Positions 1,052 to 22,675 of a stretch of 38,737 nucleotides of DNA are shown piece by piece (position 1 is the first letter of the stretch; the number at the start of each line of letters is the position of its first letter). The DNA comes from Saprospiraceae bacterium. Lineage in GTDB: Bacteria > Bacteroidota > Bacteroidia > Chitinophagales > Saprospiraceae. Position numbers and translations under genes: made by a program. The DNA lies in the NCBI GenBank assembly GCA_020629915.1, contig JAHDCK010000003.1:1-38737 (forward strand), given 5' to 3'. The notes under the pieces were generated by a model. The model did not search any database and had not been told where the DNA came from. It was given only the letters and a program-made list of their open reading frames with translations.

Positions 1052-2097
1052 TCTTTTGTTGCTTTTTGATAGAGGTTTTCGTGAGTTTTAACAATATTTC
1101 CAAGATCAAATTTTTCTTTTATATCTATTCTTAATTGTTCTCCTTTTGCCTTTGCCTCCTCATAGTTATTATAGACATACTCCATTTTATTTACAAAATC
1201 TTTAAGGGAAGCCAAATAACCATTTTCAGGTGTAATGACAGAGGGGATACTTCCTACTGGGGTTGTTATTACAGGCAATCCACTTGCACCTGCCTCCAAT
1301 AAAGAAATAGGAAGTCCTTCCCAAAGAGAAGGCATGATAAAAGCATGGGCTTGATTACATAGAATCGGAATATCCTTTCTGAACCCCAAAAGGAAAACAT
1401 ATTTTTCAAGGTTTAGTTTTTTTATTTTGTCTTTTAAGGTATCCATTAAATTGCCTTCCCCTACAATATTCACCTTAAAATTATATCCTTTATTTTTTAA
1501 TGTTTCTGCAGCTTCAATGATAAACTCATGGTTTTTTACTTTATCCATTCGGCCAATGTTGATAAAAGTAAATATGGAATCTTTTTGAATGTTTTTTTTG
1601 TACTCAATAGTGTTTATCCCATTCCCCATAGTTATTATGTTTTTAATATAAAAGAATTTTACAATTTCTTTAGAGAACAAAATATCCGTGTGGCGAAATG
1701 GTCTGCATAACCATAATATGAACTCGCGGTGCCATCCTCCAACATTAATATTGTGAGGAGTAAAGATAATTTTTAAAGAAGGGTTGAGTATTTTTAGTAT
1801 AACAGCAAAATAAACAGGGTGAGCCATATGAGCATGAATAACATGTATGTTGTTTTTTTTGATATGCCTGTTTAAGATACTAACTGATTTTATAAAAGAA
1901 ACGGGATTTTTTTTAGTAAATAAAGGTGTTGTAGGGATATTGCTTGCTTCAAATTTTGGAAGGAGAGTGACTATTTCGCTGATACTACATACGGTACAAT
2001 TAAACTTTGTTTTGTCTATCTTACGGCAAATATCAAATATGACTTTTTCTGCTCCTCCTGGCCCTAAGCCAGTTACTAATTGTAAAATATTGATCAA
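1048..2097 (-). CDS. Family 4 glycosyltransferase
   Basis: A 349-residue GT-B glycosyltransferase, expected to add one sugar from a nucleotide-sugar donor on the cytoplasmic side. The N-terminus LVTGLGPGGAE (residues 7-17) is the glycine-rich acceptor-side loop typical of GT4 enzymes. The second half carries NIGRMDKVKNH (about 180-190) and the E-x7-E motif at E260 and E268 (EGLPISLLEAG). The start is TTG at 2097; no ATG fits and the family begins just there. It is the last gene of the operon and converges on the plus-strand sulfotransferase. Donor and linkage cannot be told from sequence. Confidence 0.88.
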   Translation of the reverse strand: MINILQLVTGLGPGGAEKVIFDICRKIDKTKFNCTVCSISEIVTLLPKFEASNIPTTPLFTKKNPVSFIKSVSILNRHIKKNNIHVIHAHMAHPVYFAVILKILNPSLKIIFTPHNINVGGWHREFILWLCRPFRHTDILFSKEIVKFFYIKNIITMGNGINTIEYKKNIQKDSIFTFINIGRMDKVKNHEFIIEAAETLKNKGYNFKVNIVGEGNLMDTLKDKIKKLNLEKYVFLLGFRKDIPILCNQAHAFIMPSLWEGLPISLLEAGASGLPVITTPVGSIPSVITPENGYLASLKDFVNKMEYVYNNYEEAKAKGEQLRIDIKEKFDLGNIVKTHENLYQKATKD

Positions 2098-3854: not shown

Positions 3855-5066
3855 TTAATATTCTTGGGTTGATCGTCGGATAACCTTTTCAAGTTTTTTA
3901 TTATCCAGTGTATTGTTACTTTGGTTGAGATTTTTTACGGAACCATGAAAGTCTGCCAACACTTTTTTGCCAGATGTTTTAATGGTATTCCCCTTGATTT
4001 TTATACCATTAATTTTAGGTAAGTGATTTCTGCTGGATTGAACAGGGATGTGGAATTTTGTGAATGTATTATTTTCAATAGTTATATTTTGAGCACTATC
4101 TACCAAGAAGATACCTTTACTTCCCGTTTTGCTGCTTCCAGAAAGTATATTGTTTTTTATGGTTAAATTTTTAAGTGCTCCTTTAGAAAGAATAACGCCA
4201 TTTACGACAGAAGCTTTTCCTGTCACACTAAACTGATTGCCTTCGATCAAAATATTATTTCCAAAGACAGCAACAAAAGTTAGCATCTGACAAGCAGGTG
4301 CAGATGAAGTTCCTTTGTTATTTCTTATTTGTGCACCGGAGGCATTGACTTTGATAAACCGTTTGGGATTATCTTTAAATTGATTATTTTCGATAACTAC
4401 ATTGATATCTGTTTGTTTTGGAGATTCCACATAAATTCCATCTCCATCTTTTCTGGGGAGTATTTTTCCTATTTTGTTATTTTGTATAAAAACATTTTTA
4501 CTTTGAGGTAGTTTTGTATCTACAACTGCTATTGCTCTGGCTCCCTTTTTGGCAACCAAATTTTCAAATTCGTTTTTTCGAATGATAACATCGGGAGTAT
4601 TATTTACTGCAATGCCTCTAATGTTTTTTGAACCATCCCCTAAATTTTTAAAAGAACAGTTTTCTACTTTTATTTTTTTAGATTTTCTGATTTTAATAAA
4701 ACCTACAGGTTTAGCATTTTTCTTGGCATCAAAATGCACCTCATCAAAAGAAATATTTGAAGCATTGTCTATTACAAAGGTGAAATAAGGGGAGTTAGTA
4801 TTTATACGGGCATTTTTAAATTGAAGATTGGATTCTCCCTTTAGTTCTATTGAACGCACAATATTGAGTACCTGATTGTTGAAGTCCAATACAACTATTT
4901 TGCCGGCGGAAGATACTTTTACATTCTTCTGAATCTGGTCATAGTTTTGAATACTACCTTTTAAATTATTTTGAAAACTTTTATTCATATTCTTTAAAGA
5001 ATTTGAAGTTTTACAACCAAATGTAAAAAGGAGGAGGACACTAATCAGTATTTTTGGGAATGGCAT
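3855..5066 (-). CDS. Lipoprotein with right-handed beta-helix repeats
   Basis: A 403-residue exported lipoprotein. The N-terminus has a short hydrophobic stretch ending in a lipobox, LFTFGC, with the acylated cysteine at residue 18. From about residue 60 to the end there are repeated short strands of the type 'ITIENNTF' and 'VIRKNEF', the pattern of right-handed parallel beta-helix proteins, which include polysaccharide lyases, epimerases and glycan-binding proteins. No catalytic residues can be assigned by eye. It overlaps the O-antigen ligase gene by 26 bases and precedes the deacetylase, so a role in binding or remodelling the exported polysaccharide is likely but inferred. Confidence 0.8.
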   Translation of the reverse strand: MPFPKILISVLLLFTFGCKTSNSLKNMNKSFQNNLKGSIQNYDQIQKNVKVSSAGKIVVLDFNNQVLNIVRSIELKGESNLQFKNARINTNSPYFTFVIDNASNISFDEVHFDAKKNAKPVGFIKIRKSKKIKVENCSFKNLGDGSKNIRGIAVNNTPDVIIRKNEFENLVAKKGARAIAVVDTKLPQSKNVFIQNNKIGKILPRKDGDGIYVESPKQTDINVVIENNQFKDNPKRFIKVNASGAQIRNNKGTSSAPACQMLTFVAVFGNNILIEGNQFSVTGKASVVNGVILSKGALKNLTIKNNILSGSSKTGSKGIFLVDSAQNITIENNTFTKFHIPVQSSRNHLPKINGIKIKGNTIKTSGKKVLADFHGSVKNLNQSNNTLDNKKLEKVIRRSTQEY

Positions 5067-6309
5067 ATATGGATAAAATTATAAACAAAAAGAAAAAAAT
5101 GGGAAAATTTCCTCCAAGATCTGCTGTACTCAACGCCTTAAAAAAGAAAAAATAGTATAGCATAAAAAGGGATGAGAAGTGAACGGGATCTCTTATCTTC
5201 CACTGCATATAAAAAGGTATTAATGTAATATAAGAAAATAAAACAAGCCCTGCAATGCCCACTTCATAAAGAATTTCTAGCTGGATGTTGTGTGGGTACA
5301 TTCTTCTGTCTTTTCCTCCGGAGTACAAATACCCAAACGCGCCAAAACCATGTCCGAAGAATTTTTTGTGCACCGGAGCTTCCTTAAATCCACGCCAGGT
5401 TTTGGCGTACAGCAAGCGTCGAATATCTATAGATTCCCCAGATCGCTCTGCATAGAACCGCTTTAGGATAAACAAGTGAGACCATTTTGGGGTAACAGAT
5501 AAAACGAGTTCCTGAGAATTATAATTTTTGAGGAAAGGGTAGGCTAATGCACTTAATAAAAGAAAAAATATAAGAAGGGGGGGGGCAAATTTTATTTTAA
5601 AAAAATAAAAAGCAAAAATAGCCATTATGATAGCCAACATAACCCCGCGTGAACCAGTAAAGAATAAAAACATTCCCACTGCAATTAACATACTTAAAAA
5701 TATTATGTTTTTAATTTGAATGGAAAGATTCGAAACAAAATATCTGGAAATTTTAAGTTGAATTTTATCAAATAAAAGAATAAAGCCCACAGCAAAAAGC
5801 GTGGCGACTACAATGGGGTTGGTATTTTCTGTGAGAGCCAAACGTCCACCCACCTCATTTTCTAAAACCTGAGTAATCATATCTTGCGGGAAGAAAATGG
5901 AATAGGTACCCAGAATCAGGACAGTCCAAAAAACTAAGGAGTTTGCAAAATAAGTATAATATTTAGCCAAATAAAAACGATAGATATACCCAATACCTCC
6001 AAAGGTCACAATAAAGAATAGTTTGTTGAGAGCATATCTTGGAGTAGGGGTAAAAACACTCAAACTCATTATAAATAAAAGAGAGAAAAACAGAACAATG
6101 GCTACAAATGAAGGATAGGTTTTTTCTTCTTTAAAATATTTAAAACCAAAAAACCGGAATCCCAATAAGCTGACTACAATCAGATAAACAAAGGTCAGGT
6201 TAAATGGAAGGAAATCTCCGGAGTACCTCATGACTATCAATAATGCAATGACAAGACAAAGCACTTGATCCAGATGAGGTTTCACTATGGATTTTGGAAT
6301 AGTAATCAT
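5041..6309 (-). CDS. O-antigen ligase/polymerase (WaaL/Wzy-like) membrane protein
   Basis: A 422-residue polytopic membrane protein with about ten to twelve hydrophobic segments. A soluble loop near residues 285-345 ends in YPHNIQLEILYEVGIAG, the H-N...E...G signature of the Wzy_C/O-antigen ligase family (H340). Members either join polymerised glycan to lipid A-core or polymerise repeat units in the periplasm; sequence alone does not separate the two. With an ABC exporter in the same operon and no Wzx flippase, the ligase role is the simpler reading. A run of nine C on the coding strand (plus-strand G9 at 5577-5585) lies in codons 242-245. Confidence 0.85.
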   Translation of the reverse strand: MITIPKSIVKPHLDQVLCLVIALLIVMRYSGDFLPFNLTFVYLIVVSLLGFRFFGFKYFKEEKTYPSFVAIVLFFSLLFIMSLSVFTPTPRYALNKLFFIVTFGGIGYIYRFYLAKYYTYFANSLVFWTVLILGTYSIFFPQDMITQVLENEVGGRLALTENTNPIVVATLFAVGFILLFDKIQLKISRYFVSNLSIQIKNIIFLSMLIAVGMFLFFTGSRGVMLAIIMAIFAFYFFKIKFAPPLLIFFLLLSALAYPFLKNYNSQELVLSVTPKWSHLFILKRFYAERSGESIDIRRLLYAKTWRGFKEAPVHKKFFGHGFGAFGYLYSGGKDRRMYPHNIQLEILYEVGIAGLVLFSYITLIPFYMQWKIRDPVHFSSLFMLYYFFFFKALSTADLGGNFPIFFFLFIILSIYAIPKNTD

Positions 6310-6312
6310 GGA

Positions 6313-7089
6313 CTAATTAAAAAAGTGTTCCCATTGTGTTCCATGAAAATGAGTCTTTAGTTCAGTGTAGTTTTCTATGGTTTTTGAAAGATCTTTTTTC
6401 CGTTGTTTTTTCAAATTGCTTGTCAAATGCTGGGTGAAAACAGGCACTTCAAGATATTGTTGTAAACGTTGGAGGCTATCTGCCTGCTGGTGGATGAGTT
6501 CGTTATAAGTGACCTCTAAACAATCCTTGTCAACAATACGGTCTTTAAAAGTTTTCTCCCACTCCTGAGTTTGCAAAAACTGTGCTTCACAATCCTGAGG
6601 ATCTATGTAAAGTAATTTTCCTGAAGTACCATTCCGTGCTTTCTTTTCACTAGACCAGCTTCCTGTCATCACGGCTTTTTCCCTTGAGGCGATAACATGC
6701 AATAAGTTCTCTCTCTTTAAATGAATAAATTTCATATTTTGAATACTCATAATGTAACTCCAAACTCTTTCGGGGTTGTCATCCAGTGGGTGGTAATAAA
6801 AAATTTTGAATCCTGCAGCCTGTATTCCTTTTGGTTGTAAAAAATAATATTTGTCAAAAACAGTTTTGATGTTTCTGTTTAATAATCGATTTACTTCTTC
6901 TCCTCTGGCATAAATATTTGGATGTGCATCCAGTAGAGACATCAGAAGATTGGAGCCGGAACGGGAACGCGTTACTACTAAAAACCGGGTAAAGGAATCA
7001 TGATGAGCAATCCATTTTTTTCTGGCGAGATAACAGGTCAGGTTTTCTTTCTCTCTCTTTATTTTTCGTGTTACTCTTCCGATGTTCAA
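6313..7089 (-). CDS. Stf0-like sulfotransferase
   Basis: A 258-residue PAPS-dependent sulfotransferase. The 5'-phosphosulfate loop VTRSRSGSNLL lies near residues 38-48, followed by DAHPNIYARGEEV. HLKRENLLHVIASREKA gives the 3'-phosphate side, and a C-terminal ENYTELK closes the protein. The same order of motifs recurs in the genes ending at 12981, 13890 and 15743, so the four are one paralogous family. The start is TTG at 7089; no ATG occurs before the P-loop. It sits directly after a glycosyltransferase gene (gap 7 bases). The acceptor sugar is unknown. Confidence 0.85.
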   Translation of the reverse strand: MNIGRVTRKIKREKENLTCYLARKKWIAHHDSFTRFLVVTRSRSGSNLLMSLLDAHPNIYARGEEVNRLLNRNIKTVFDKYYFLQPKGIQAAGFKIFYYHPLDDNPERVWSYIMSIQNMKFIHLKRENLLHVIASREKAVMTGSWSSEKKARNGTSGKLLYIDPQDCEAQFLQTQEWEKTFKDRIVDKDCLEVTYNELIHQQADSLQRLQQYLEVPVFTQHLTSNLKKQRKKDLSKTIENYTELKTHFHGTQWEHFFN

Positions 7090-7096
7090 GGGATAA

Positions 7097-8167
7097 TTAA
7101 ATTAAAGTGAGTAGTGGGGAAGTATTGTTTTTTTTGAAATGTTCTGACCAAGTATAATCTATAGAAAAATCATATAATTCCTGGTGTATAGTATTTGAAT
7201 TATAATATTTTAAAATAGCTTCTTTTGAAACTAAAGTTTCAGGGGAGTCTAAAACAATACCAAGGTTTTTACTAGCAATGTGCATAGAAAAATCTCCTAT
7301 ACCTTTTGTCATGATAGGGACAACACCCTGACTAGTGTATTCCAATAGTTTTATCGGAGAGGCTACATTATTCAGTGGTACATCATCCCGAAGCAAAAAA
7401 CCAAAATCAAACTTCCTTAGATAAGGAAGCACTTCATTTTGTTGTAATGAAATAATATGTATATCTTTTCTTACTTTGCCGGTAATAGATTTAATAATTG
7501 ATGCTGCTTCGGATTTATTGCGGGTGATGATGGTTAGTTCACTTTGCTGTAGTGTTTCATGCAAAGCAATGTACTGCCGCATAGTTTGTTCAAATAATTG
7601 CCATTTACTCAACCCTCCCAGATAGACAAAACGTATAAGTCTATTGTTTTTTTGTTTGTTCATTTTTTTGAACACATCTGAAGTACAGCACGGAGTAAGC
7701 CAAACCTCTCTTTCTGATCCAAAAGTAGCGCTCAATCTTTTTATCAAATTTTGAGAAACGGCTTCCAGAAAATCTGCTGAACGGTAAGCATGTTTTTCTA
7801 ATAACTTTATACACTTTTGGTGAAGTCCTGAAAAACCTCTGTAGGCTGCTTCTTCATAGTTTAGGGCTCTAAAAGAATAATACACAGGAGTTTTTATTGA
7901 AAAAATTTGTTTTATTATTGATATATATAAAAAATTTGTTTTACTTCTGGTATAAATTAAACTCGCAGTCCGCATAGTTTGAGATAACTCCCTTAAAGCT
8001 TTATAAGTTTTAATTTTGATTCCTGAAGGTGCGTTTATCTGGCCGGAAAATGAAGCAGAAACAGCAAGAGTAACGGGTCTGTTTTGATATATGATTTTTG
8101 CAGGCTCCACAATCTGAGAATGAATAACTCCCAGACTCAATCCTTCTGGTATTATCATTAAAAGCAT
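7097..8167 (-). CDS. Glycosyltransferase, GT4-like
   Basis: A 356-residue protein with a GT-B layout. The N-terminal half is divergent; the C-terminal half has FVYLGGLSKW (near 190), and then FGFLLRDD and SPIKLLEYTSQGVVPI (about 275-310), where the conserved glutamate of the donor site and the following glycine/proline turn are visible. The classic first glutamate of E-x7-E is not clear, so the exact family is uncertain. It is likely to add one residue to the chain and sits between two sulfotransferase genes. Start ATG at 8167; another ATG lies three codons later. Confidence 0.75.
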   Translation of the reverse strand: MLLMIIPEGLSLGVIHSQIVEPAKIIYQNRPVTLAVSASFSGQINAPSGIKIKTYKALRELSQTMRTASLIYTRSKTNFLYISIIKQIFSIKTPVYYSFRALNYEEAAYRGFSGLHQKCIKLLEKHAYRSADFLEAVSQNLIKRLSATFGSEREVWLTPCCTSDVFKKMNKQKNNRLIRFVYLGGLSKWQLFEQTMRQYIALHETLQQSELTIITRNKSEAASIIKSITGKVRKDIHIISLQQNEVLPYLRKFDFGFLLRDDVPLNNVASPIKLLEYTSQGVVPIMTKGIGDFSMHIASKNLGIVLDSPETLVSKEAILKYYNSNTIHQELYDFSIDYTWSEHFKKNNTSPLLTLI

Positions 8168-8177
8168 TCCTTAATTG

Positions 8178-9137
8178 TTAAACCGGATAATTGAATTTCG
8201 ATAATAAATTTCCTGCGGCTTTTTCAAAATTTTGACGAATGCCTTTTTCTAACCCTGTTTTCCATTTATAAGAAGGCGCATGAATATTTTTGGCATTTAT
8301 CCTGGAAGAATTTCCTCCGACCATGTGTGATTCAGTTGTGAGATCTAATGCATCAACATTTAGCTGAAGCCCGAGTTGATCACTCATTTTTTGAAAGGTT
8401 TTTTGAGGGGTTGCAGCAAAGTCTTCATGGCGAATAAGATAGCTGCTTTTAGGGGACAAGAAATACTTGAAATAATAGTATAAAAAAGTATTCAATCTTT
8501 TCCAGTTTTTAATGATGGTATGAGGGTTACTTTCTTTTCGCTTGTATTCTCGTGTTTGTAATTCCCCGGCTTCATCAGTTGATATCACCTTATATGTTTT
8601 TTTAAGATAAGAAAAAATTACTGCTCTGCCATCGCGAATCAAATGCAGGAAAATACTTTTGTTTTTTAATTTATTTTTGAGGAAGAGTGCCCTGCGAAAA
8701 TTTTTGCTACTGTCTATTAAATAATCTATTTGTGTTTCATGCTGAAATAGATCGAAAACAAATATGTTGTTTTTTATTATCTTTTTGTTTTCATTGTTCA
8801 ATAAAATTGAAAAGCCCAATAAGTTGAGAGTAAGATCTATGGTATCAAGCAGGCGATAAAAAATACCTCCTTCCCCAAAGGGAAGAAGGTGCATGCGAAA
8901 TTTTTTTATACTTTCTTCTTTTATGGAATGTTTGGTGCAAAATAGTTTGCGCTTTGTTTTCCAAAAAGGACAGTGACTATATTTTTTGCCACAACTGCAT
9001 AGGGTGTCACTGGTTATAATTCTGGAAAAGAAAAAAATCTCTCCCAGAGAATGGCTCCTAGGAAAACTTCCTAGAGCTTTATCTAAAACTGTTGAACCAC
9101 TATGACCGCTACCTAAGATAAATATAATTTTCTTCAT
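8178..9137 (-). CDS. Sulfotransferase with CSCG...CPFW motif
   Basis: A 319-residue sulfotransferase. The P-loop ILGSGHSGSTVLD lies at about residues 7-19, and HLIRDGRAVIFSYLKK carries the 3'-phosphate-binding Arg and Ser. A short cysteine motif, CSCGKKYSHCPFW (about 47-59), is common in a bacterial subgroup and may bind metal or form disulfides. It is clearly a different lineage from the four Stf0-like copies in this operon. The ATG start overlaps the upstream stop in ATGA, indicating translational coupling with the preceding glycosyltransferase gene. Acceptor unknown. Confidence 0.87.
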   Translation of the reverse strand: MKKIIFILGSGHSGSTVLDKALGSFPRSHSLGEIFFFSRIITSDTLCSCGKKYSHCPFWKTKRKLFCTKHSIKEESIKKFRMHLLPFGEGGIFYRLLDTIDLTLNLLGFSILLNNENKKIIKNNIFVFDLFQHETQIDYLIDSSKNFRRALFLKNKLKNKSIFLHLIRDGRAVIFSYLKKTYKVISTDEAGELQTREYKRKESNPHTIIKNWKRLNTFLYYYFKYFLSPKSSYLIRHEDFAATPQKTFQKMSDQLGLQLNVDALDLTTESHMVGGNSSRINAKNIHAPSYKWKTGLEKGIRQNFEKAAGNLLSKFNYPV

Positions 9138-10384
9138 TTTAAATTTGTGGTTTTGGCCACTGTGTCAGGTTTTTGTTCTAAGATTGGGTTCAATAGAGTT
9201 TTACTGAAAATTTCAGGTGTCTTATCTTCCAAAAATTTTTTTCCATACTGCAAATTATCTTGCTGATGAAAGATTTTAATAATTGCGTTTTTTATAGCCA
9301 CAGAATCATGGCCATTAGTAGAAATACCTAATTGAAATTGATCCATGAGTTCACTTATCAAACCTTTATCAGGGCCAATGACAGGTTTTTTAAATTTTGT
9401 AGCATGTCCTAAAATTCCGCTGGAACCGTAAAAATTAATATAAGGCATTAGGACAAAATCCGTTAACCAAAATAGTGCATCTCTAACACTATCTTCCACA
9501 AAAGAGGGTTCAAAAAATATATCTAAAGTTGTCGGAATTGCTTCTAACTTTTTTTCAATTTGATTCAAATATGCGGGAGAAGCATGGCCACAAATAATTA
9601 GTTTGACCTGATTTAGGAAAAAGGGGTCAATCTGCCTAAAAGCTTCCAGAACGTTCAGTACATTTTTTCGAGGATCAAGCCCACCAAAAAGTAAATATAT
9701 TTTTTTGTTCTGATTAATATTAAAACGCTTTTTAGTGGTTTCCAAAATTTCAGGAGTAAATCCAATGCTCTCTGGAATGGGATCTGGCAAGTAATGAAAA
9801 ATATCTCTGTGGGTCAATTGATTTAGCCGGGTTGCTGTACTCTGATCATTTAGTAAATATACGTTTTTTAGATTTTTTTGACGAGCGAGTACCAAAACCT
9901 GTCGCCTCTTCCATTGTTTTTTTAACCACACTCGACTAAAAAAACTTTCTACAGCCATCCGGCAATAAGGAATGAAAAATATACCTGAAAAAAATAAATT
10001 CGAGTTTTCTTTATGGTTGCCGAGTGCGTGGAGATACGGATCGATAGTTAGAAAAAAGAGATGCCTGATATTTTCCTTTTTACAAAAATCTAAGATGTGG
10101 GGAAGTTCCTGCTCTCCTCGCTTGAGTTGATGCAAACCAGCCTCATAAATTTTTATTATAGCATCATTTATGATGTGAATAGTGCGCTTGAAAGGGTTTT
10201 TGATTTGCTCAGCGGCTTTAGGGTGGATAAGAAATGAAAAGTTAACCTCTGTTTGGTATTGCAACAGATGATTCAGGTATTCGATGTGATGACCCGTATA
10301 GGCCGAATCGTAGAATAGGATTTTTGGAGAATTAGTTTTCAATTTTGCGAATAAATTTGGCAGGATTACCTCCCCAAATCTCAT
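9134..10384 (-). CDS. Glycosyltransferase, GT4-like
   Basis: A 416-residue GT-B-type glycosyltransferase. The N-terminal SAYTGHHIEY (about 27-36) looks like the acceptor-side loop, and LLFGGLDPRKN with later MPYINFYGSSGILGHA marks the donor domain. The usual first glutamate of E-x7-E is not seen, which points to a divergent GT4 branch. The ATG at 10384 overlaps the preceding acetyltransferase gene by 53 bases; an in-frame TTG at 10342 would cut this to 11 bases and is a realistic alternative start. It is coupled by ATGA overlap to the following sulfotransferase gene. Confidence 0.75.
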   Translation of the reverse strand: MRFGEVILPNLFAKLKTNSPKILFYDSAYTGHHIEYLNHLLQYQTEVNFSFLIHPKAAEQIKNPFKRTIHIINDAIIKIYEAGLHQLKRGEQELPHILDFCKKENIRHLFFLTIDPYLHALGNHKENSNLFFSGIFFIPYCRMAVESFFSRVWLKKQWKRRQVLVLARQKNLKNVYLLNDQSTATRLNQLTHRDIFHYLPDPIPESIGFTPEILETTKKRFNINQNKKIYLLFGGLDPRKNVLNVLEAFRQIDPFFLNQVKLIICGHASPAYLNQIEKKLEAIPTTLDIFFEPSFVEDSVRDALFWLTDFVLMPYINFYGSSGILGHATKFKKPVIGPDKGLISELMDQFQLGISTNGHDSVAIKNAIIKIFHQQDNLQYGKKFLEDKTPEIFSKTLLNPILEQKPDTVAKTTNLK

Positions 10385-10895
10385 TGTCAGGAATAGATTT
10401 TGCTACTACCGATCTGGCTGCTACAATACTTCTTTTACCTATAGTGACTCCTTTTAATACTAAAACATCCATACCCAAAAATGCCCCTTCCCTGATAAGA
10501 ATGGGGGCTGTTTTTTTGGCACGATCTCCTTTGTGAATGCGTTCTTCATAATCCAGTGAGTGAAAATCTGAATCGTAGATTTGGCACCCTCCTCCAATCA
10601 ATACATTGTCTTCAATGGTTAGGGAGGTTTTAATATAAAAAAGGGTATTTGAAATGCCTACATTATTTCCAATGGAAAGAGTGGCATCATTACTAATGAT
10701 AAAACAAGTACCATCTGCACGACCCACCGGATTGGCAGAGAATGCAGATTTAATTTGAACATTTTTACCCATAGTAATTTTTCCTTTTCCTTTAATAGTT
10801 AACCTTCCTTTTATACTTGGATAGTTGATATACGATACATTTCTGTATTTTAGAATAAGAAAGTTGAGAAGAGAAGGAAAAGGATTAATGTTCAT
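10332..10895 (-). CDS. Hexapeptide-repeat acyltransferase (WcaF/MAT-like)
   Basis: A 187-residue left-handed beta-helix acetyltransferase if started at the ATG at 10895. The frame is open upstream to 11027, but that part lies inside the preceding glycosyltransferase gene and shows no homology, so the shorter form is preferred (11-base overlap). Hexapeptide turns such as VLIGGG and VLVLKGVTIG run through the protein, and the end ARSVVAKSIPDNEIWGGNPAKFI is the standard C-terminus of the maltose/galactoside acetyltransferase group. It probably O-acetylates a sugar of the repeat unit from acetyl-CoA. Confidence 0.85.
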   Translation of the reverse strand: MNINPFPSLLNFLILKYRNVSYINYPSIKGRLTIKGKGKITMGKNVQIKSAFSANPVGRADGTCFIISNDATLSIGNNVGISNTLFYIKTSLTIEDNVLIGGGCQIYDSDFHSLDYEERIHKGDRAKKTAPILIREGAFLGMDVLVLKGVTIGKRSIVAARSVVAKSIPDNEIWGGNPAKFIRKIEN

Positions 10896-11877
10896 TATCC
10901 GTTGGGAGAGGAATCTTTTTTTGTATATAAATTTTGTACGGGACTTGTTTTGAAATTGTTTCTTTAAGGCGTTGTTTCCAGGTTGGTTTGGGTTTGGGAG
11001 AATTGAGTTGTTTTTTGGCTTTGTCAATTAGATCAACTGGATAGCCATATTTTTTTAGCCGCTCATTTAATCGTTCAAAATAAGGAAAAAGACAAGTGTC
11101 AGAGCCTTGCAGAAAATGACTAAACTTACTCCGTGCAAAATGATAAAAAATGATAGGGTATGTTTGCTCCTCATCAGAGACATAGGCCACTTTATTTTTT
11201 ACGGAGCGAGTTAAAAGTTCTGTATTCCAGTAAGCCACATTACATCCTTTATGTCTCATTATTTTTACCTCAGGAAAATAAATGGGCATCAAATCCAAAT
11301 AACCCTGATCATCATGAAAGTGATAAGGAATATCCTCACATAACTCAGAACAGACTTTTGACCACCAATTTAGTACAGGAAGTCCTTTTTTAGAGGCAGC
11401 TACAAATCCGGCATTGAATAAACCAACCCGATGCATGGAATGTAATTTTTTAAAATTATTGATATCTAACCAATGCGGGGTGATCAGCATAGAATGTTTT
11501 TCCAGTTCTTTCCACATAAAACTGAAATCATTAAAAAATTGAATATCAGGATCGCAGTATATGACTTTGTTATATTCATTTTGTTCCATAAGCAGAGAAA
11601 TTAATTCTCCCTTCATCGCCCAACGAATTCTATCCTTGTCTTTGTGCTCATATTTTTTCATGATAACCTGAGCAAGAGGTCTGTGTGTTAATTGTTCTAA
11701 TGTCAGTAACTGTATATTGGAGGAATAAAACTCCTCCGGAATCTTAGGATTAGATTCATCTGCTACTAAAACATATAACTTAATACTTTTATCTTGTTCT
11801 TTAATCGAGTCATACAAAGCTAATGCCCAAGGTAAAAAATTATAGGTGATTATAGTGCAGAAACAGTTATTTGACAT
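10885..11877 (-). CDS. GT-A glycosyltransferase, nucleotide-diphospho-sugar transferase type
   Basis: A 330-residue GT-A fold protein. The N-terminus CTIITYNFLPWALALYDSI resembles GT8-type enzymes, and VIYCDPDIQFF (residues 105-115) contains the DPD (DXD) metal and nucleotide-sugar site at 109-111. HWLDINN and the later FHDDQGYLDLMP are typical of the group. It is likely to transfer a sugar in a retaining or inverting reaction that cannot be decided here. The ATG start is clear. Its 3' end overlaps the acyltransferase start by 11 bases. Confidence 0.8.
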   Translation of the reverse strand: MSNNCFCTIITYNFLPWALALYDSIKEQDKSIKLYVLVADESNPKIPEEFYSSNIQLLTLEQLTHRPLAQVIMKKYEHKDKDRIRWAMKGELISLLMEQNEYNKVIYCDPDIQFFNDFSFMWKELEKHSMLITPHWLDINNFKKLHSMHRVGLFNAGFVAASKKGLPVLNWWSKVCSELCEDIPYHFHDDQGYLDLMPIYFPEVKIMRHKGCNVAYWNTELLTRSVKNKVAYVSDEEQTYPIIFYHFARSKFSHFLQGSDTCLFPYFERLNERLKKYGYPVDLIDKAKKQLNSPKPKPTWKQRLKETISKQVPYKIYIQKKIPLPTDNEH

Positions 11878-11901
11878 TTATTCTTGTGTTCATTTTTTGA
11901 A

Positions 11902-12984
11902 TCAGGACTGTAATACTTTATTATATGCTTTAATAGTTAAATTGCTTATATTATTCCAATCGAGTTCTTCTGCTTTTTTTCTGGATGCTTCTCCCATTTT
12001 GACTCTTTTGTCTCTTTCTCGGGATAATTGTTCTATATGATTTACAAATATGTTAAATTCTCCATGAGGGATATAATAGGATCCTTCCGGGCTTGTATAT
12101 TCTCTTGCGGCACCCACATCATTAATTAATATGGGGAGCCCTGAGGACATCGCTTCCAGTAATGCATTATTAGCTGTACAATTGAGTAAAGGCAATATAA
12201 AAATATCTGATTCCCGATAGATGGAAGCTAAATCTTCATTGGAAATTCCGGAATGCCAGTTGACATTATCAAAATGAGAAATGCTAAACAAAGGCCCCTT
12301 TTTTCTGCCGGAATAAGGGATAATGAGATCGAACTGGACGTTTAAGTTTCGTTCATGGGATTTTCGGATTACTTTAATCAAAGTATCTATATCCCTCAGC
12401 CATGCCCCTGCAAAAACACATCTGATTTTTTCATTACTCTGCTCCGAAACAGTTGGAGTTTTAAAAAAATCTGTCTTTACCCCATGGGGAATCACAAAAA
12501 TTTTTTCTTCAGGGAAAAATTGTTTAAAGTAATCTACTTCATTTGCAGACAATAAAATAAGTCCATCCAGACAGGATAGGACAGAAGTCGGTTGGTGATG
12601 AAACTTCCACCAGCCTCCGGGTTGGTGTGCAGTGGCTATTAGTTTAGTAGAACCGAGAACCGTTTTGTTTTGAGCTAAATAACCTAAGTTATTTTCGAGA
12701 TATGCAATATGAAAAATATCAGCCTTGATTTTTTTATTCTCTTGGATGGACTTTTGTTCCACTACATAACTGTTATAATTGTACCCGGCCAATTGTCCAT
12801 ATTTTTTTTTGATATGAGGATGCCGTATTTTTCTGTCCCAAAGATTTAATTTTTTTAAATCTCTAAAATTCGAATATAGCTTCAAATCTTCTCGTTTTTC
12901 CATCGTATCAAATAAGCAATCATATCCACTGACATTGCCCATGTGGGCGAAGCGTTCTCTGATGGCAATGATGGATAAGCTCAA
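11902..12984 (-). CDS. Family 4 glycosyltransferase
   Basis: A 360-residue GT-B enzyme. The N-terminal domain has the HMGNVSGYDCL loop (about 14-24); the donor domain has VIPHGVKTDFF (about 163-173), CVFAGAWLRDIDTL and LLNCTANNALLEAMSSGLPI, where the second glutamate of the E-x7-E motif is kept but the first is replaced. The start is TTG in a TTGA overlap with the stop of the upstream sulfotransferase, so the two are translationally coupled. An ATG at codon 15 is a less likely start because it would remove the acceptor loop. Confidence 0.82.
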   Translation of the reverse strand: MSLSIIAIRERFAHMGNVSGYDCLFDTMEKREDLKLYSNFRDLKKLNLWDRKIRHPHIKKKYGQLAGYNYNSYVVEQKSIQENKKIKADIFHIAYLENNLGYLAQNKTVLGSTKLIATAHQPGGWWKFHHQPTSVLSCLDGLILLSANEVDYFKQFFPEEKIFVIPHGVKTDFFKTPTVSEQSNEKIRCVFAGAWLRDIDTLIKVIRKSHERNLNVQFDLIIPYSGRKKGPLFSISHFDNVNWHSGISNEDLASIYRESDIFILPLLNCTANNALLEAMSSGLPILINDVGAAREYTSPEGSYYIPHGEFNIFVNHIEQLSRERDKRVKMGEASRKKAEELDWNNISNLTIKAYNKVLQS

Positions 12985-13742
12985 TTTATGTTTAATTCTT
13001 TTGTGTATTTCGCATAAACACTTCCCTCTAAAGTGCGGATGACTTCCTGAAGATTTGTCACCAGATCATATCCATTGCCGGAAATGATTTTTTTTGTAGC
13101 AGGCTGGAGAGGATGTTCGGTTACCTGAAGTGCCTGTTGAATCGTGCTTAATTCATTGCTGAATTGGGAAGGTTGAATAAGATTTTCATAGGCAATACTT
13201 AAGCCACTAAATTGCTGGGCGAAAGCATCCAGTTCTTCGTTTTCTAATTGATAGTTCTTCAAATTTTTCAAAAGTTGGTTCGTATTAATTTTCAATCGAA
13301 CATCCTCTTTTTTTATATCTTTTTTTGTTGCCCATGTTCCGGTGGCCTTTGCTCTTTCATGAGAAATAAACCGTTTGAGAATATGTTGTCTTTTTAGGAT
13401 AACTACAAATATATTTTCTTTTTGAATAAATTTCAGCACTTCCGGATATTTCTGCAATTGGTTGAGCATTATTTTAAATCCGCGAGCCCCTTTGGGCTGA
13501 TAGAATTGTTTTAAAAAGGGGGTAACATATCTTTTTATACGATATCGGTGTGCCCATTTTTTGAAAGGGCTTTCTGAAAGATATTGATAAAAGGAACATT
13601 CCGGGTGTCGGATTTGGAGCGCTTTGGGATTGAGAGATTTCAAGATTTCTCCGGCACAAAATATTTGAGGATGCTCATCCAGTGTGTTGATGAGCATTGT
13701 AGATCCAGATCTTTGAGTTGTTATTATTATAAATTTTTTCAA
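12981..13742 (-). CDS. Stf0-like sulfotransferase
   Basis: A 253-residue sulfotransferase whose P-loop IITTQRSGSTMLI begins at residue 6, followed by DEHPQIFCAGE. The 3'-phosphate region is VILKRQHILKRFISHERAKATGTW in type, and the C-terminus has a TNLQEV motif matching its three paralogues. The start is TTG (MKKFIII); an in-frame stop lies four codons upstream and no ATG is available. The 147 bases in front of it contain the stub of another sulfotransferase, so this gene may have acquired its present start when that neighbour was deleted. Confidence 0.85.
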   Translation of the reverse strand: MKKFIIITTQRSGSTMLINTLDEHPQIFCAGEILKSLNPKALQIRHPECSFYQYLSESPFKKWAHRYRIKRYVTPFLKQFYQPKGARGFKIMLNQLQKYPEVLKFIQKENIFVVILKRQHILKRFISHERAKATGTWATKKDIKKEDVRLKINTNQLLKNLKNYQLENEELDAFAQQFSGLSIAYENLIQPSQFSNELSTIQQALQVTEHPLQPATKKIISGNGYDLVTNLQEVIRTLEGSVYAKYTKELNIN

Positions 13743-13799
13743 AATGTCAAATCATTTAAAAAACACAGCACTCTTAAACAATTGAGCTGTAATTCAAAT

Positions 13800-13889
13800 T
13801 CAGAAAGTTCTGTAAGGCGTTGATAAAAGCCAGGATATTCCGGCTTTTTGAGCTCCAATTCCAATGAAATTAACTTTTTGATTAGCCAT
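13800..13889 (-). pseudogene. Remnant N-terminus of a ninth sulfotransferase
   Basis: An ATG directly after the upstream stop codon opens 29 codons containing NFIGIGAQKAGISWLL (residues 7-22). This is the 5'-phosphosulfate loop of Sulfotransfer_1 enzymes, usually written IGAQKAGTTWL. The frame then stops at TGA and the rest of the domain (about 200-250 residues) is missing; the next intact gene begins 58 bases later. It is best read as the stump left by a deletion. It belongs to a different branch from the neighbouring Stf0-like genes. Confidence 0.65.
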
Positions 13890-14687
13890 TTAAAACAAAT
13901 ATCCCCATTCTGTATCGTCAAACGCATCTTTCAATTCTGCGTAATTTACCACCAATTGATCCAGAGGTTCTTTATTTTGTTTTTTAAGTTTTGTTTGAAG
14001 TGGATAAGATTTTACTTCCAGTGCATCCCAAATTTTTTGCATTTCCTCATTCGGATGTTTAGCCAGGTTTTCATAGGTTAGAGAAATCCATTGACTTTTT
14101 GGGAAATAATCTGGTATTTCTTTTTTGTATTGAGCCTGTTTGATGAAAAAGTCCCTGCAGGTTTTGACGGGTAAGGTAATGCGTTTGTCAATCTGACTAC
14201 TTTGTTCTTTTGTTTTAGCCCACTGATTGGTCTTTCGGGCAACCTCCAGAGAAACAAGTATTTTAAATATATGTTCTCTCTCTAAGTGTATGATATGCAG
14301 ATCTGTACCAAGAGATTTCAGATGATCCCACAATTGCTTCCAGCTTCCTTCTCTGGCATGATAGTAGAATAGTTTAAAACCTACTGCTTTTATGCTATGC
14401 GACTGAGGTCCATAGACAAATTGATTGAGAAAATCTGTAACATTATTCCGACGATGATTTTCAATTTGCTCATCGCTCTTGTTTTTTGAATATGTTTTAT
14501 TTTCATTTTTCCAGGCAACGGATTGTTGTTCATTAAAAATCTCTCCAAAGCAATATAATTCAGGGTGTCCGTTGAGGTAGGAGCGAAGCAGATTTGTTCC
14601 TGTTCGGGCATGGCCCAACAGAACAAATTTTTTATAGTTCTGATTGGTTTTGCCTCTAAAAATATCTTTAAGCCAGGCGGAAGTCAT
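13890..14687 (-). CDS. Stf0-like sulfotransferase
   Basis: A 265-residue sulfotransferase. The PAPS loop VLLGHARTGTNLLRS lies at about residues 22-36 and NGHPELYCFGE follows it. IIHLEREHIFKILVSLEVARKT corresponds to the 3'-phosphate segment, although the usual Arg-Asp pair is Arg-Glu-His here, as in the other Stf0-like copies. The C-terminal VNYAELKDAF matches the gene at 6313-7089. It begins with ATG one base after the WbsX-like gene and is followed at once by the sulfotransferase stub. Likely substrate: the sugar added by a neighbouring transferase (inference). Confidence 0.85.
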   Translation of the reverse strand: MTSAWLKDIFRGKTNQNYKKFVLLGHARTGTNLLRSYLNGHPELYCFGEIFNEQQSVAWKNENKTYSKNKSDEQIENHRRNNVTDFLNQFVYGPQSHSIKAVGFKLFYYHAREGSWKQLWDHLKSLGTDLHIIHLEREHIFKILVSLEVARKTNQWAKTKEQSSQIDKRITLPVKTCRDFFIKQAQYKKEIPDYFPKSQWISLTYENLAKHPNEEMQKIWDALEVKSYPLQTKLKKQNKEPLDQLVVNYAELKDAFDDTEWGYLF

Positions 14688-14688
14688 T

Positions 14689-15750
14689 TTATGAAATTAG
14701 AGCTTTTTTAGTTTGATTTAAAAACTCATGGCCAAATTCTCTACAGGGTTCCAGATAATTTCCTTCAGCCCATTCATTCCAGGATTTGATAAATACAATT
14801 CGCTCTTCTTTAGGGCGATGCTGGACTTTCTGAACAGCATCATTTAACCACTTACCATATTTTTCCGGGGTACTGCCCCAGAGAATACGTCCCTTGTTTC
14901 CTGATCGCGGAGTATTGTCCCAGTTAGGTACAACTAATGGACATTCTTTTAGGTGGAGTGGTTGACTGGTTCGGAGAGAGACGTACTTTTCGTAATCATA
15001 TATAAAAGGTCTTTCTGTTCCCAAGGCTGCTAAAATTCTATGGGAATTTTTAAACTTTCTGGCAGGGAAGATTTTTCCGGCCCAAGGTGCATTGGTGACA
15101 GATGCGGAAAATCCATATTCTTCTGGTTCCCATTTGTTGTCTACCCCTACAAAATAAATTCCTGGTAATCCGGCTTCTTTTGCTAGTTGTTGCCAATAGT
15201 TTGTAAAAGAAACGGGTTCAGGAATTTGTCTGGGATTGTAAATTAAAAAAAGAGGCTGGCCATTCACCGTAAAATATCGTTTGTCTTTAAATGCAGGTAA
15301 GACTGTATTAAAGTGAGCTTTGAAGTCTTTTTGCCCTGGGTAGATTTGTTTGAATAAAAATTCATCATTCATACCATGCCATTTTCCTGTCCAGCTTTCA
15401 TTTGCCCATCCGAGACAAAATGGAAAATCAGGTTGCTTGGATGTAAGGACTTCATCAAAGATTTTTTCTAAAACCCGCACCCCGTTTCCAAACCAATAAT
15501 GCCAGTAACAAAAAGCTTCAATGCCTGCATCTTTGGCCAATTGAGCTTGTTGTGCTCTTACTTCTGCTACTCTTAAATCATAAAATCCCAAATCAGCAGG
15601 AAGTTTAGGTTGTTTATGACCCTTAAATAAGGGCTTGGCTTTTGTAACATTTGTCCATTCTGTAAAGCCTTTTCCCCAGAATGCATCATTTTCCGGAACG
15701 GGATGATATTGGGGCAGATAGAAGGCTATAGCTCGGGCTTTTTTACTCAT
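14689..15750 (-). CDS. WbsX-family glycosyltransferase / GH99-like protein
   Basis: A 353-residue protein of the WbsX family found in O-antigen and capsule loci. It has the full signature: FYLPQYHPVPEND near the N-terminus, FWGKGFTEWTNV, then FCYWHYWFGNG, GWANESWTGKWHG and the C-terminal KSWNEWAEGNYLEP. The fold is related to GH99 endo-mannosidases and the family is annotated as glycosyltransferase, although the reaction is poorly established. The ATG at 15750 is chosen over an upstream TTG (15783) because the homology starts there; it gives an ATGAGTAA overlap with the preceding sulfotransferase gene. It lies between two sulfotransferase genes. Confidence 0.88.
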   Translation of the reverse strand: MSKKARAIAFYLPQYHPVPENDAFWGKGFTEWTNVTKAKPLFKGHKQPKLPADLGFYDLRVAEVRAQQAQLAKDAGIEAFCYWHYWFGNGVRVLEKIFDEVLTSKQPDFPFCLGWANESWTGKWHGMNDEFLFKQIYPGQKDFKAHFNTVLPAFKDKRYFTVNGQPLFLIYNPRQIPEPVSFTNYWQQLAKEAGLPGIYFVGVDNKWEPEEYGFSASVTNAPWAGKIFPARKFKNSHRILAALGTERPFIYDYEKYVSLRTSQPLHLKECPLVVPNWDNTPRSGNKGRILWGSTPEKYGKWLNDAVQKVQHRPKEERIVFIKSWNEWAEGNYLEPCREFGHEFLNQTKKALIS

Positions 15751-16531
15751 TAGTTTCCAGGTAAGTTTCCATCTGATTATCAATAAGCACTGTTTTGATT
15801 TCCTGAAAATTGGAAATCATTTCACGCAGAGAAAAGGGGTTTTGTTTTTTTTGACTGTGTTTTAATTTGATGTTTTTTAGTTTCGTCCCTAAAAATTTTT
15901 CAACTTTATCTGTAGGAAATTTTGAGGTAATTTCTTCGTAGGAAAGTTCTAAAAAAGATTGTTGGGTTTGCCTTAGTTTCTCTTGTTTGTATTCAAAAAA
16001 ATCCTCTCTGTTTTTTTTATAGTTTAAAAATGTACTCAATTCTACTTTGGTAGAATTAAGACGAACTTCTTCCTGATTAAGTCGATCCCATCTTCCGGTT
16101 TCCATTGCGATTTGCTCTGAAACAAAACTTTTTAGAAGATTGTCTCTTTTTAAAAATATTTTTTTAATATACTTATTATGAATCAGGTGCTCCATTGCCC
16201 AGGGATGTTGATGCTGAAATATTTTAAACCCAATTGCATCGTAACTATTTTTGTTATAAACTCTTTTTAGATATGATTTGGGATTTCTCCGCTTTAATCT
16301 CCGCAGTGCATGAAAATCATCTTCTGAAAACCAGCGGTAATACCAGGGAGCTTTAGGCATATCTTTTTCAGAAAGAAAAGCGCGCTTAAAAGCATTAGGG
16401 TTTCGATGAAAAATTTCGGAATGACAGAGAATGTTTGCACAACTATTGAGTGTCTTTACAAAAAAGGTGCTACCCGTACGGGGGTAGCTGATTATAACAA
16501 AAAAAATAGTTTCAGGGTAAATACGAGTCAA
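15743..16531 (-). CDS. Stf0-like sulfotransferase
   Basis: A 262-residue sulfotransferase with the P-loop VIISYPRTGSTFFV at about residues 12-25, the IFLKRDNLLKSFVSEQIAMETGRW segment near the middle and a C-terminal SNFQEIKTVL. The motif order matches the paralogues ending at 6313, 12981 and 13890. The start is TTG; an in-frame stop lies two codons upstream. It follows a family 4 glycosyltransferase gene and overlaps the WbsX-like gene by 8 bases, so it is translationally coupled to the latter. Acceptor not known. Confidence 0.85.
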   Translation of the reverse strand: MTRIYPETIFFVIISYPRTGSTFFVKTLNSCANILCHSEIFHRNPNAFKRAFLSEKDMPKAPWYYRWFSEDDFHALRRLKRRNPKSYLKRVYNKNSYDAIGFKIFQHQHPWAMEHLIHNKYIKKIFLKRDNLLKSFVSEQIAMETGRWDRLNQEEVRLNSTKVELSTFLNYKKNREDFFEYKQEKLRQTQQSFLELSYEEITSKFPTDKVEKFLGTKLKNIKLKHSQKKQNPFSLREMISNFQEIKTVLIDNQMETYLETNE

Positions 16532-16544
16532 GTTTTAGATTAAA

Positions 16545-17750
16545 CTATTTCCAAGCACTACGGATATGAAGTGCTTTTTTCAATTCACTTATCAGAATGT
16601 TCATAGCATTATCTACATTATTTTCTCCATTAAAAAAACAATGATAAGCTTCTTCGGCTTTTTGTTTTCTGTAGTCAGGAGATGTCGCCAGCCTTTTCAT
16701 AAGATTTGCTAGTTGGGTAGAATCAGAGGGATCACAGTAAAGTATAGTTTGTTGACCCATTTCTTTATGGCCCCCATGATCTGAGCAGATTACCGGGCAC
16801 TTTAGTGCCATTGCCTCAAGGATAGGCATATTAGTTGGCCCAAGGTAAGTAGGCATAGTCAACGCAATTGCATTTTTGTAAAGGGTTGCTAATTCCGGCT
16901 CACTGACAAATCCAATAAATTGTACTTTTTCATTTAAATTATAATCTTTAACAATTTGCTTTATATAGTCCAGGTTACCTTTATCTACACCTGAAAAAAC
17001 TAATTTTTTATCTGTGAAATTAGCAATTCTAAAAGCTTCGATTAATGTATAATGATTTTTGATTCTCCAAAAATTAGCTGGATAAAAAAAGTAAGAATTA
17101 GGGGTAAGATTAAAAGAGTTTAGAATTTTTTGCTGGGTAATATTATCGGGATTTTCGTTTATTACACTACCAGGAAACATAGGAGAAACGACGACTTTAT
17201 CTTCAGGTATTCCACAATAATCCAATAATTCTTTTTTTCCGGTTTCAGATTCGGCAATAATGCGAATAGCTCTGGGCATAATATCCCTATACCATTGTTG
17301 TCGAACTTCATAGTTTCCTTCTACATCAGGAAAGGAAGATGTTGTAATATGAGCTAAATCCCAGTTATTTAAAATAAAGGGTATTGAGGGGGTAAGAAAC
17401 TGATGTTGCATTGGATAATAAATTAATCCAATTTTTTCTTCCCTCAAAAATGCTGACAGTTCGTGTTCTAAGTCTATTTTCTTTGAAGTACTTTTTCCTA
17501 AAAAACTAAAAAAGGGTTTTGCCCTTTTTTTCTTCTTAATATAGCGATTAGGAATCTGTATAACTTTCTCAATTTTAAAATGATCTTTTAACCAATTAAA
17601 ATAAGTTTCATCCTGAGATTCAGGAACAATTAAAGCTAAACGATCTTTCAATTCACTATTAAAAAGATACTGAAAGAGTTGATCTAAATAAGCAAAACCA
17701 CCTCCTTTTTCTTTTTCAAATTTTCCTTTATAGTATATTCCTATATACAC
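16545..17750 (-). CDS. Family 4 glycosyltransferase
   Basis: A 401-residue GT-B enzyme. The N-terminal EKGGGFAYLDQL (about 14-25) is the glycine-rich acceptor loop. The donor domain has FFYPANFWRIKNHYTLI (about 222-238) and TYLGPTNMPILEAMALKCPVI, a variant of the donor site seen in mannosyltransferase-like GT4 proteins, with the second glutamate retained. The start is GTG, overlapping the methyltransferase gene by 10 bases. It is followed after 13 bases by an Stf0-like sulfotransferase. Confidence 0.85.
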   Translation of the reverse strand: MYIGIYYKGKFEKEKGGGFAYLDQLFQYLFNSELKDRLALIVPESQDETYFNWLKDHFKIEKVIQIPNRYIKKKKRAKPFFSFLGKSTSKKIDLEHELSAFLREEKIGLIYYPMQHQFLTPSIPFILNNWDLAHITTSSFPDVEGNYEVRQQWYRDIMPRAIRIIAESETGKKELLDYCGIPEDKVVVSPMFPGSVINENPDNITQQKILNSFNLTPNSYFFYPANFWRIKNHYTLIEAFRIANFTDKKLVFSGVDKGNLDYIKQIVKDYNLNEKVQFIGFVSEPELATLYKNAIALTMPTYLGPTNMPILEAMALKCPVICSDHGGHKEMGQQTILYCDPSDSTQLANLMKRLATSPDYRKQKAEEAYHCFFNGENNVDNAMNILISELKKALHIRSAWK

Positions 17751-18520: not shown

Positions 18521-18521
18521 G

Positions 18522-19676: not shown

Positions 19677-19679
19677 ACA

Positions 19680-21119: not shown

Positions 21120-21122
21120 GGA

Positions 21123-22250: not shown

Positions 22251-22675
22251 TTTATTATTGCTTCTTCTGATTTTATTGGATTAAATCTCACTTTATCTTT
22301 TTCCCCACAGTAGGGGCCTTGTTTCACCTCAATAATTTCTGAATCTTCAATCATCTCAAACCCATGCCCTCCTGCCGCAAGCAGTATGACATCTCCCTGA
22401 TGCAAAATTGAACTTTCAAGGTAAGTCTGACTATCATCATAAAAATCAACTCGGACTTTACCGGATTTTATATATAAAACCTCCTGAGTTAAAACTACCT
22501 CCCTTGGCACTAAATTATGTCGATGAGGAGCAATAATATAGCCTTTGGGGCGGTTCATATATCCCAATTGTTGGGAGAAGTCATCTGGTGTGAAAAATTC
22601 GATACCTTCTTTTTTAAAGTTTGATCGAATAATAATTGCCAAAGAAATACCTTGGTGTTCTATTTTTTGTAACAT
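22247..22675 (-). CDS. Cupin-domain protein
   Basis: A 142-residue single-domain cupin. APHRHNLVPREVVLTQEVLYIKSG holds the first cupin motif (H...E type, about residues 49-72), and HQGDVILLAAGGHGFEMIED the second (about 92-111). Similar small cupins are often found beside DegT aminotransferases in O-antigen loci, and this gene overlaps one by 4 bases. A role as isomerase or epimerase, or as a binding protein for a sugar nucleotide, is possible; no specific activity can be named. It overlaps the upstream sulfotransferase gene by 16 bases. Confidence 0.75.
   Translation of the reverse strand: MLQKIEHQGISLAIIIRSNFKKEGIEFFTPDDFSQQLGYMNRPKGYIIAPHRHNLVPREVVLTQEVLYIKSGKVRVDFYDDSQTYLESSILHQGDVILLAAGGHGFEMIEDSEIIEVKQGPYCGEKDKVRFNPIKSEEAIIK

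Follow-up and report, generated by a model that had tools for sequence, protein, structure and literature searches.

Four NodH/Stf0-like sulfotransferase genes in one Saprospiraceae polysaccharide cluster belong to separate branches of their family and were probably recruited separately

We analyzed a 38,737 nucleotide stretch from a Saprospiraceae bacterium (contig JAHDCK010000003.1 of assembly GCA_020629915.1), called the window throughout. The genome is 4.69 Mb in 547 contigs and 97% complete, and the window is one of these contigs (C246). The first ~32 kb of the window are mostly a polysaccharide cluster in which four genes, named here by first coordinate, encode mutually similar predicted sulfotransferases. 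A preliminary description of this DNA had read the four as paralogues that duplicated and then specialized. Because the four belong to old, separate branches of a widespread family, the cluster was probably assembled by recruitment, with four old lineages brought together in one ATP-binding cassette (ABC) exporter polysaccharide cluster separately and not by tandem duplication in place. The four genes are as follows.

6313..7089, minus strand: S1, NodH/Stf0-like sulfotransferase, 258 aa (PF13469 41.2 bits, PF00685 25.8 bits)
12981..13742, minus strand: S3, NodH/Stf0-like sulfotransferase, 253 aa (PF13469 28.3 bits, PF09037 27.0 bits)
13890..14687, minus strand: S4, NodH/Stf0-like sulfotransferase, 265 aa (PF13469 51.7 bits)
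15743..16531, minus strand: S5, the most divergent of the four, 262 aa (PF13469 18.1 bits, under the cut-off of 27)

All four open frames are intact, lie on the minus strand and encode 253-265 aa. As had been described, they are similar to each other yet diverged, with pairwise blastp E values from 4.5e-31 (6313/13890) to 1.3e-9 (6313/15743) and 24-31% identity. The four genes are not linked by any direct repeat of at least 25 bases. The motifs said to unite them stood in part: the K/E-R-x-N/H segment and the C-terminal N-x-x-E were found in all four, while the H-P...GE segment is missing from 15743, which reads ...CANILCHSEIF.... An RxG loop, a conserved Glu (E64 in 6313, E32 in 12981, E49 in 13890, E39 in 15743), an R...S pair, a Tyr and a C-terminal Asn are present in each protein, and all four carry both the RxGS/T form of the 5'-phosphosulfate loop and the R...S of the 3'-phosphate site. 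In an alignment of 116 family members that included the four, RxG occurred in 113, R...S in 116, the Glu in 109 and the Asn in 115, and R28, G30, E49, R137, S146, Y205 and N248 (13890 numbering) were each conserved in at least 109. The motifs named earlier are signatures of a family spanning many phyla and are not special to these four proteins.

The label Stf0-like held in a broad sense only. The PF13469 cut-off (27 bits) was passed by 6313, 12981 and 13890 and failed by 15743, which we placed in the sulfotransferase superfamily because of its similarity to the other three (E 4.5e-16 to 12981), its motifs and its structural model, not because of Pfam. PF09037 (cut-off 22 bits) was passed by 12981 alone; 6313 scored just short at 21.1 bits, and 13890 and 15743 were absent from the list at E 1. 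A PF09037 search of the window's own genome gave no match at E 0.001 and neither did 14 control genomes, so this search was uninformative. Against the Stf0 equivalog model NF047724 (cut-off 400), three of the four scored 24.4, 23.6 and 17.3 bits and 15743 was not listed; by this model none of the four counts as a trehalose 2-sulfotransferase. The four therefore read as NodH/Stf0-like in the broad sense and not as Stf0 proper.

Structure prediction was consistent with this placement. The 13890 model (predicted local distance difference test score, pLDDT, 89.8) was best aligned by VIA-align to Stf0 (1tex; Z 13.8, root-mean-square deviation 3.9, 200 residues aligned), with heparan sulfate 3-O-sulfotransferase (Z 13.1) and others tying with Stf0 within 1. 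For the 15743 model (pLDDT 81.7) the CurM sulfotransferase (Z 11.5), an olefin synthase domain (11.2) and Stf0 (11.2; deviation 4.1, 188 aligned) tied. All 50 of 50 VIA-align rows were sulfotransferases for both models, which gives both the sulfotransferase fold. By sequence, the best match among solved structures was PDB 9vki, deposited as 'LPS sulfotransferase NodH' (LPS, lipopolysaccharide), with E 5.4e-13 from a four-row profile and E 1.5e-23 across most of its length from a 38-row profile. 9vki was absent from the fold-search lists of both models, and a literature search on the accession found no publication. The 38-row profile also matched the Stf0 trehalose 2-sulfotransferase (1tex, PF09037) at E 3.9e-8. 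The superfamily rule, as given in the part of the review available, places a Lys/Arg in the phosphosulfate loop, a Ser on the 3'-phosphate helix and a His or Glu as base (PMC11625862); E49 and its equivalents would be the catalytic-base Glu of this rule. No literature on Stf0 with 'general base' or Glu36 was found among the matches listed.

Homologues were collected from several samples. A GTDB genome scan with alignment, in which candidates were confirmed by 6313 alone, gave 73 loci from many phyla, and three plasmid loci were added. In whole-genome profile searches, tallied without the window's own genome, 10 of the 99 relatives had matches at E 1e-5. At E 1e-12 matches occurred in 6 of the 394 genomes sampled from the phylum, in 15 of 395 from the order and in 9 of 294 from the class; these three samples overlap, and 6 to 8 candidates were scored per genome in them. 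For each of the four, 109 distinct outside proteins (at least 25 bits, from 126 matches) were ranked by score together with the three other window proteins. The first window protein appeared at rank 60 of 106 for 6313, 26 of 109 for 12981, 57 of 108 for 13890 and 29 of 104 for 15743. The top foreign matches were L108 for 6313 (40% identity), L104 for 12981 (30%), L046 for 13890 (35%) and L100 for 15743 (39%). For each of the four, the nearest proteins thus come from other bacteria and not from the window.

Trees gave the same picture. After removal of 19 other matches for low score or short coverage, a quick tree was built from 116 rows and a careful tree from 64 of them, and in both the four landed in four places. 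6313 was sister to L108, a protein from the window's own family of bacteria (support 100/95), within a 16-row clade (97/89) that spans nine phyla among its named members. 12981 fell among Parafilimonas proteins and others from family f20 in the window's order (96/97; ten-row clade 100/98), and 15743 paired (99/88) with L100, a protein from a different family of the phylum. 13890 branched basally to a group made up mostly of Chloroflexota, its closest proteins by path being from Chloroflexota, Planctomycetota and Mesorhizobium. In approximately unbiased (AU) tests on the 64 rows the four as one clade were rejected (p 1.8e-6). This grouping was set before the tree was seen; the six pairs and the one trio tested, 6313+12981+13890 (rejected, p 3.4e-4), were picked afterwards. 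Five of the pairs were rejected (12981+15743, p 4.5e-4; 12981+13890, 0.002; 13890+15743, 2.7e-4; 6313+12981, 9.1e-4; 6313+15743, 3.1e-4) and 6313+13890 was not (p 0.086). A length character separated 6313 as well. The stretch from the conserved Glu to the GF motif is 25-31 residues long in 17 of 17 rows of the 6313 clade and 28 in 6313 itself, 25 fewer than the 53 of 13890; it is 55 residues in 12981 and 61 in 15743. Failure of the four to group against outside homologues was the outcome that the preliminary description had named as refuting its proposal, and duplication in this lineage is unsupported because of it; separate recruitment, or ancient paralogy combined with transfer, has support.

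The genes adjoining the four were examined together with the surroundings of their homologues. The adjoining glycosyltransferase genes in the window are these.

7097..8167, minus strand: presumed glycosyltransferase, upstream of S1 (from its position and the preliminary description; no Pfam match)
11902..12984, minus strand: GT4 glycosyltransferase, start overlapping the end of S3 (PF00534 50.6 bits)
14689..15783, minus strand: WbsX-type glycosyltransferase (PF14307 445 bits)
16545..17750, minus strand: GT4 glycosyltransferase, upstream of S5 (PF00534 90.3 bits)

Thus 12981 lies by a GT4 gene, 13890 by WbsX and 15743 between GT4 and WbsX, as had been noted; the supposed GT4-like gene at 7097 had no Pfam match at E 0.01. 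In locus L146 of genome G204, which belongs to another family of the phylum, the 15743 homologue, its nearest kin, is followed by an opposite-strand block and then by a same-strand WbsX homologue (49% identity to 14689), after which comes a homologue of the 11902 glycosyltransferase (25% identity, E 2.9e-34). The window has the same S5-WbsX-GT4 order, but 13890, a gene remnant and 12981 sit between WbsX and 11902. This shared order hints that the 15743 gene arrived as a module with its neighbours. Matches to S5 at E 1e-10 were found in 1 of 92 genomes of the G204 family, namely G204, a patchy distribution. The opposite-strand block of L146 (10458-15810) holds five frames and may, as a guess, be an insertion.

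Around L108 in genome G577, a hexapeptide protein, a GT4 and an aminotransferase are 28-41% identical to counterparts in the window, which is common polysaccharide-cluster content. In the 58 GTDB-scan loci of at least 10 kb, homologues of any of six glycosyltransferase genes of the window were present in at least 15 and homologues of another window sulfotransferase in at least 8, and none had a WbsX homologue (E 1e-8, window proteins as queries). These counts are lower bounds, as the family member itself was lost in 6 of 73 loci, apparently through removal of overlapping frames. In L089, L090, L091 and L093 (two Parafilimonas, two Bacteroidetes) two tandem family members stand beside another sulfotransferase gene. 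These tandem pairs fall in two sister clades and represent an old duplication that persisted, unlike the situation in the window. On a contig of another genome (G099:C26), a strong member, L008, lies inside 12 kb together with two weaker matches of 32.0 and 24.5 bits, which are outside the tree.

A single 13890-type sulfotransferase gene was seen in the same gene order in L049 (130-5256) and L059 (4856-9947). Its flanks, named by eye, are membrane acyltransferase-like, short-chain dehydrogenase/reductase (SDR) epimerase-like and GT2-like genes and a further presumed glycosyltransferase, and by computation the SDR neighbour in L049 matches the window gene at 28799-29812. Homologues of the four L049 neighbours occurred in 18, 16, 16 and 15 of the 72 other GTDB-scan loci, with adjacency not constant (in L030 two of them lie 6 kb off). 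We considered this setting as a clue to the acceptor of 13890 and rejected it, as the window lacks the L049/L059 order and no acceptor can be deduced from it.

Three other histories were weighed against separate recruitment. Local tandem duplication and specialization, with one ancestral cluster gene giving rise to all four, would fit genes of one family and similar length on the same strand within 10.2 kb. It would also fit the finding that no other listed genome of the phylum, order or class had more than two matches at E 1e-12, a count from a profile that favours its own rows with 6 to 8 candidates scored per genome. Each of the four is nevertheless nearer to foreign proteins, their stretch lengths differ with that of 6313 matching its foreign clade, and the trees and AU tests reject duplication of all four, leaving this history with next to no chance in our judgment. 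A partial duplication, in which 6313 and 13890 are local duplicates and 12981 and 15743 were recruited separately, fares somewhat better and is still unlikely. These two are the top-scoring pair (27% identity, E 4.5e-31) and the AU test did not reject them as sisters (p 0.086), a result that also counts against recruitment of all four. However, the free tree joins 6313 with L108, forcing the pair costs 22.9 log-likelihood, the stretches after the Glu are 28 and 53 residues long, and 59 foreign proteins outrank 13890 for 6313. Very old paralogy would have early duplications produce four lineages that were carried together in ancestral clusters, with the cluster inherited or transferred whole and lost elsewhere. 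The side by side members in L089, L090, L091 and L093 indicate that small sets do travel together, and the order kept in L146 and the three matches on G099:C26 point the same way. Against it stand the limit of two matches per listed genome, read with the same sampling, and the single genome of the G204 family with S5 kin, and we consider this history very unlikely, less probable than the partial duplication.

Several further points weigh against separate recruitment or against parts of our description. The homologue sample from the GTDB scan is rich in 6313-like rows since 6313 alone confirmed candidates, and the careful tree and all AU tests used 64 of 116 rows, the other 52 being omitted as long-branched or near-duplicate. 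The position of 13890 lacks starred support in either tree, and of the 80 rows that belong to none of the named clades, 6 also have a stretch of 25-29 residues. Because the kin are distant, with identities reaching about 40%, old duplications with losses elsewhere are indistinguishable from transfer, and one gene order in common does little to prove a mobile module. Foldseek ordered the known folds differently: its list for 15743 began with tyrosylprotein sulfotransferases and reached Stf0 at rank 15 and other P-loop proteins at rank 18, and its list for 13890 began with heparan sulfate 3-O-sulfotransferase and had Stf0 at rank 22. The sulfation chemistry is inferred throughout. On balance we favour separate recruitment of the four lineages, with 15743 probably recruited together with its neighbours WbsX and GT4. 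Horizontal transfer and the order of recruitment we infer.

The remaining genes of the cluster include four sulfotransferases of other kinds, further glycosyltransferases and an exporter.

137..1051, plus strand: S0, sulfotransferase of another kind (PF13469 56 bits)
1048..2097, minus strand: GT4 glycosyltransferase (PF00534 116 bits)
5041..6309, minus strand: Wzy_C / O-antigen ligase family membrane protein (PF04932 50.2 bits)
8178..9137, minus strand: S2, sulfotransferase of another kind (PF13469 41.7 bits)
9134..10384, minus strand: GT4-like glycosyltransferase (PF00534 36.4 bits)
10885..11877, minus strand: possible GT8-like protein (PF01501 20.6 bits, below the cut-off of 24.3)
13821..13889, minus strand: remnant of a ninth sulfotransferase gene (MANQKVNFIGIGAQKAGISWLLS...), start codon directly past the S4 stop, 23 recognizable codons and a stop six codons later
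18522-21119, minus strand: AlgX-like and MBOAT pair
21123: aminotransferase gene
22660..23634, minus strand: S6, sulfotransferase of another kind, distantly NoeE-like (PF13469 95.4 bits; NCBIfam NoeE 76.3 bits, cut-off 500)
23627..24382, minus strand: S7, Sulfotransfer_1 type sulfotransferase (PF00685 125.7 bits)
24387..25619, minus strand: ABC exporter ATPase, Wzt-like (PF00005 83.3 bits; top NCBIfam models teichoic acid and galactan exporters, below cut-off)
25620..26444, minus strand: ABC exporter permease, Wzm-like (PF01061 68.3 bits)

In all, the cluster has eight sulfotransferase genes that are intact, with the 137 gene alone on the opposite strand, and of a ninth the start remains. The other sulfotransferases (137, 8178, 22660 and 23627) were weakly similar to the four, the best E value being 3.7e-5 (6313 to 22660), and a four-protein profile found no fifth member in the window's own genome at E 0.01 except a weak match to 22660 (E 0.0015). 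The remnant was 52% identical over 21 aa to the N-terminus of a PF00685 protein (L071:10294-11205) with E 0.002, obtained on a small set of open reading frames with composition correction off. A Pfam search with its 24-aa piece gave no match, and the stretch beyond it gave no convincing match; only the N-terminal part is claimed. Lying between two intact genes, the piece reads as one that has decayed or been deleted. GalE, a nucleotide-sugar dehydrogenase and an UpxY antiterminator (above cut-off) lie farther along the window. The adjacent AlgX-like and MBOAT genes suggest O-acylation of the same polysaccharide. At 34628-38571 the GC content climbs to 0.51 with only short minus-strand frames and recurring words, possibly (a guess) a single long repetitive gene that leaves the contig.

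Genes for sulfotransferases, for glycosyltransferases and for an exporter stand together here, and the genome has an adenosine 5'-phosphosulfate (APS) kinase gene (G000:C405, 206.6 bits, on a contig other than the window's), which makes up the gene set of a sulfated-polysaccharide cluster. This ABC-exporter polysaccharide cluster putatively makes a sulfated glycan, and the four proteins are predicted to be carbohydrate sulfotransferases dependent on 3'-phosphoadenosine 5'-phosphosulfate (PAPS), of the NodH/Stf0-like branch of Sulfotransfer_3. APS kinase would supply PAPS, which each enzyme would bind through its RxGS/T loop and R...S pair, with the conserved Glu after the P-loop helix presumably acting as base. 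Before the polysaccharide is exported, each enzyme may then sulfate a residue of its own on it in the cytoplasm. It is likely that each acts on a different sugar or position, as the preliminary description proposed, and this is compatible with their old divergence, intact motifs and different neighbours. A broader picture is possible but somewhat doubtful. The cluster may grow through capture of sulfotransferases, either singly or in small modules with glycosyltransferases, of which S5-WbsX-GT4 is the visible case, each bringing an acceptor specificity of its own, and it may also discard them, as with the truncated ninth gene. Its product could then carry up to eight separately placed sulfates, a code rewritten through gene exchange and not duplication.

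Assigning acceptors to bacterial polysaccharide sulfotransferases is difficult. If same-family neighbours in a cluster did not arise by recent copying, the annotation of each can draw on its own foreign relatives and on the glycosyltransferases adjoining those relatives, a usable route to acceptor prediction, and a tree test is needed ahead of any duplication claim for 'paralogues in a cluster'. The case of these four genes is ordinary in kind and moderately informative about how such clusters evolve. PF13469 matches were found on five further contigs of the window's genome. At E 0.001 they occurred in 109 of 148 genomes including the window's own, which contradicts a sulfotransferase-rich genome as an unusual trait. 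In another genome of the order, five PF13469 matches lie within about 9.5 kb (G500:C134:6710-16240) among the matches listed, a dense array. The available part of a study of Shark Bay mats describes no such sulfotransferase gene in its Bacteroidetes genomes, in contrast to these counts (PMC9723792). A literature search joining sulfotransferase, exopolysaccharide and Saprospiraceae found nothing.

Published clusters offer comparisons, each taken from the part of the account available. The Pontiella sulfatireligans F21 cluster also has a sulfotransferase within a glycosyltransferase-rich cluster; it differs in that the organism's putative glycosaminoglycan sulfotransferase genes number three, of which one is in the cluster (PMC7356697). 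The synechan cluster xss of Synechocystis 6803 likewise combines sulfotransferases and glycosyltransferases in one exopolysaccharide cluster; its two sulfotransferases come from distinct subfamilies, and the numbers of sugars and sulfates roughly match the gene numbers (PMC8205485). It differs in having two sulfotransferases and a Wzx/Wzy system, whereas the window has eight intact sulfotransferase genes and an ABC exporter. The sulfated capsule cluster of Vibrio sp. KMM 8419 shares the ABC exporter and has three sulfotransferase genes, which its authors related to different bacterial orders (PMC11641403). One of these three is O-antigen-linked and the PAPS genes lie in the cluster, in contrast to the APS kinase gene on another contig here. 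As far as these accounts go, sulfotransferases of mixed origin in one cluster are already published, and the number in the window exceeds that in the synechan and Vibrio clusters, but relatives hold dense sets too.

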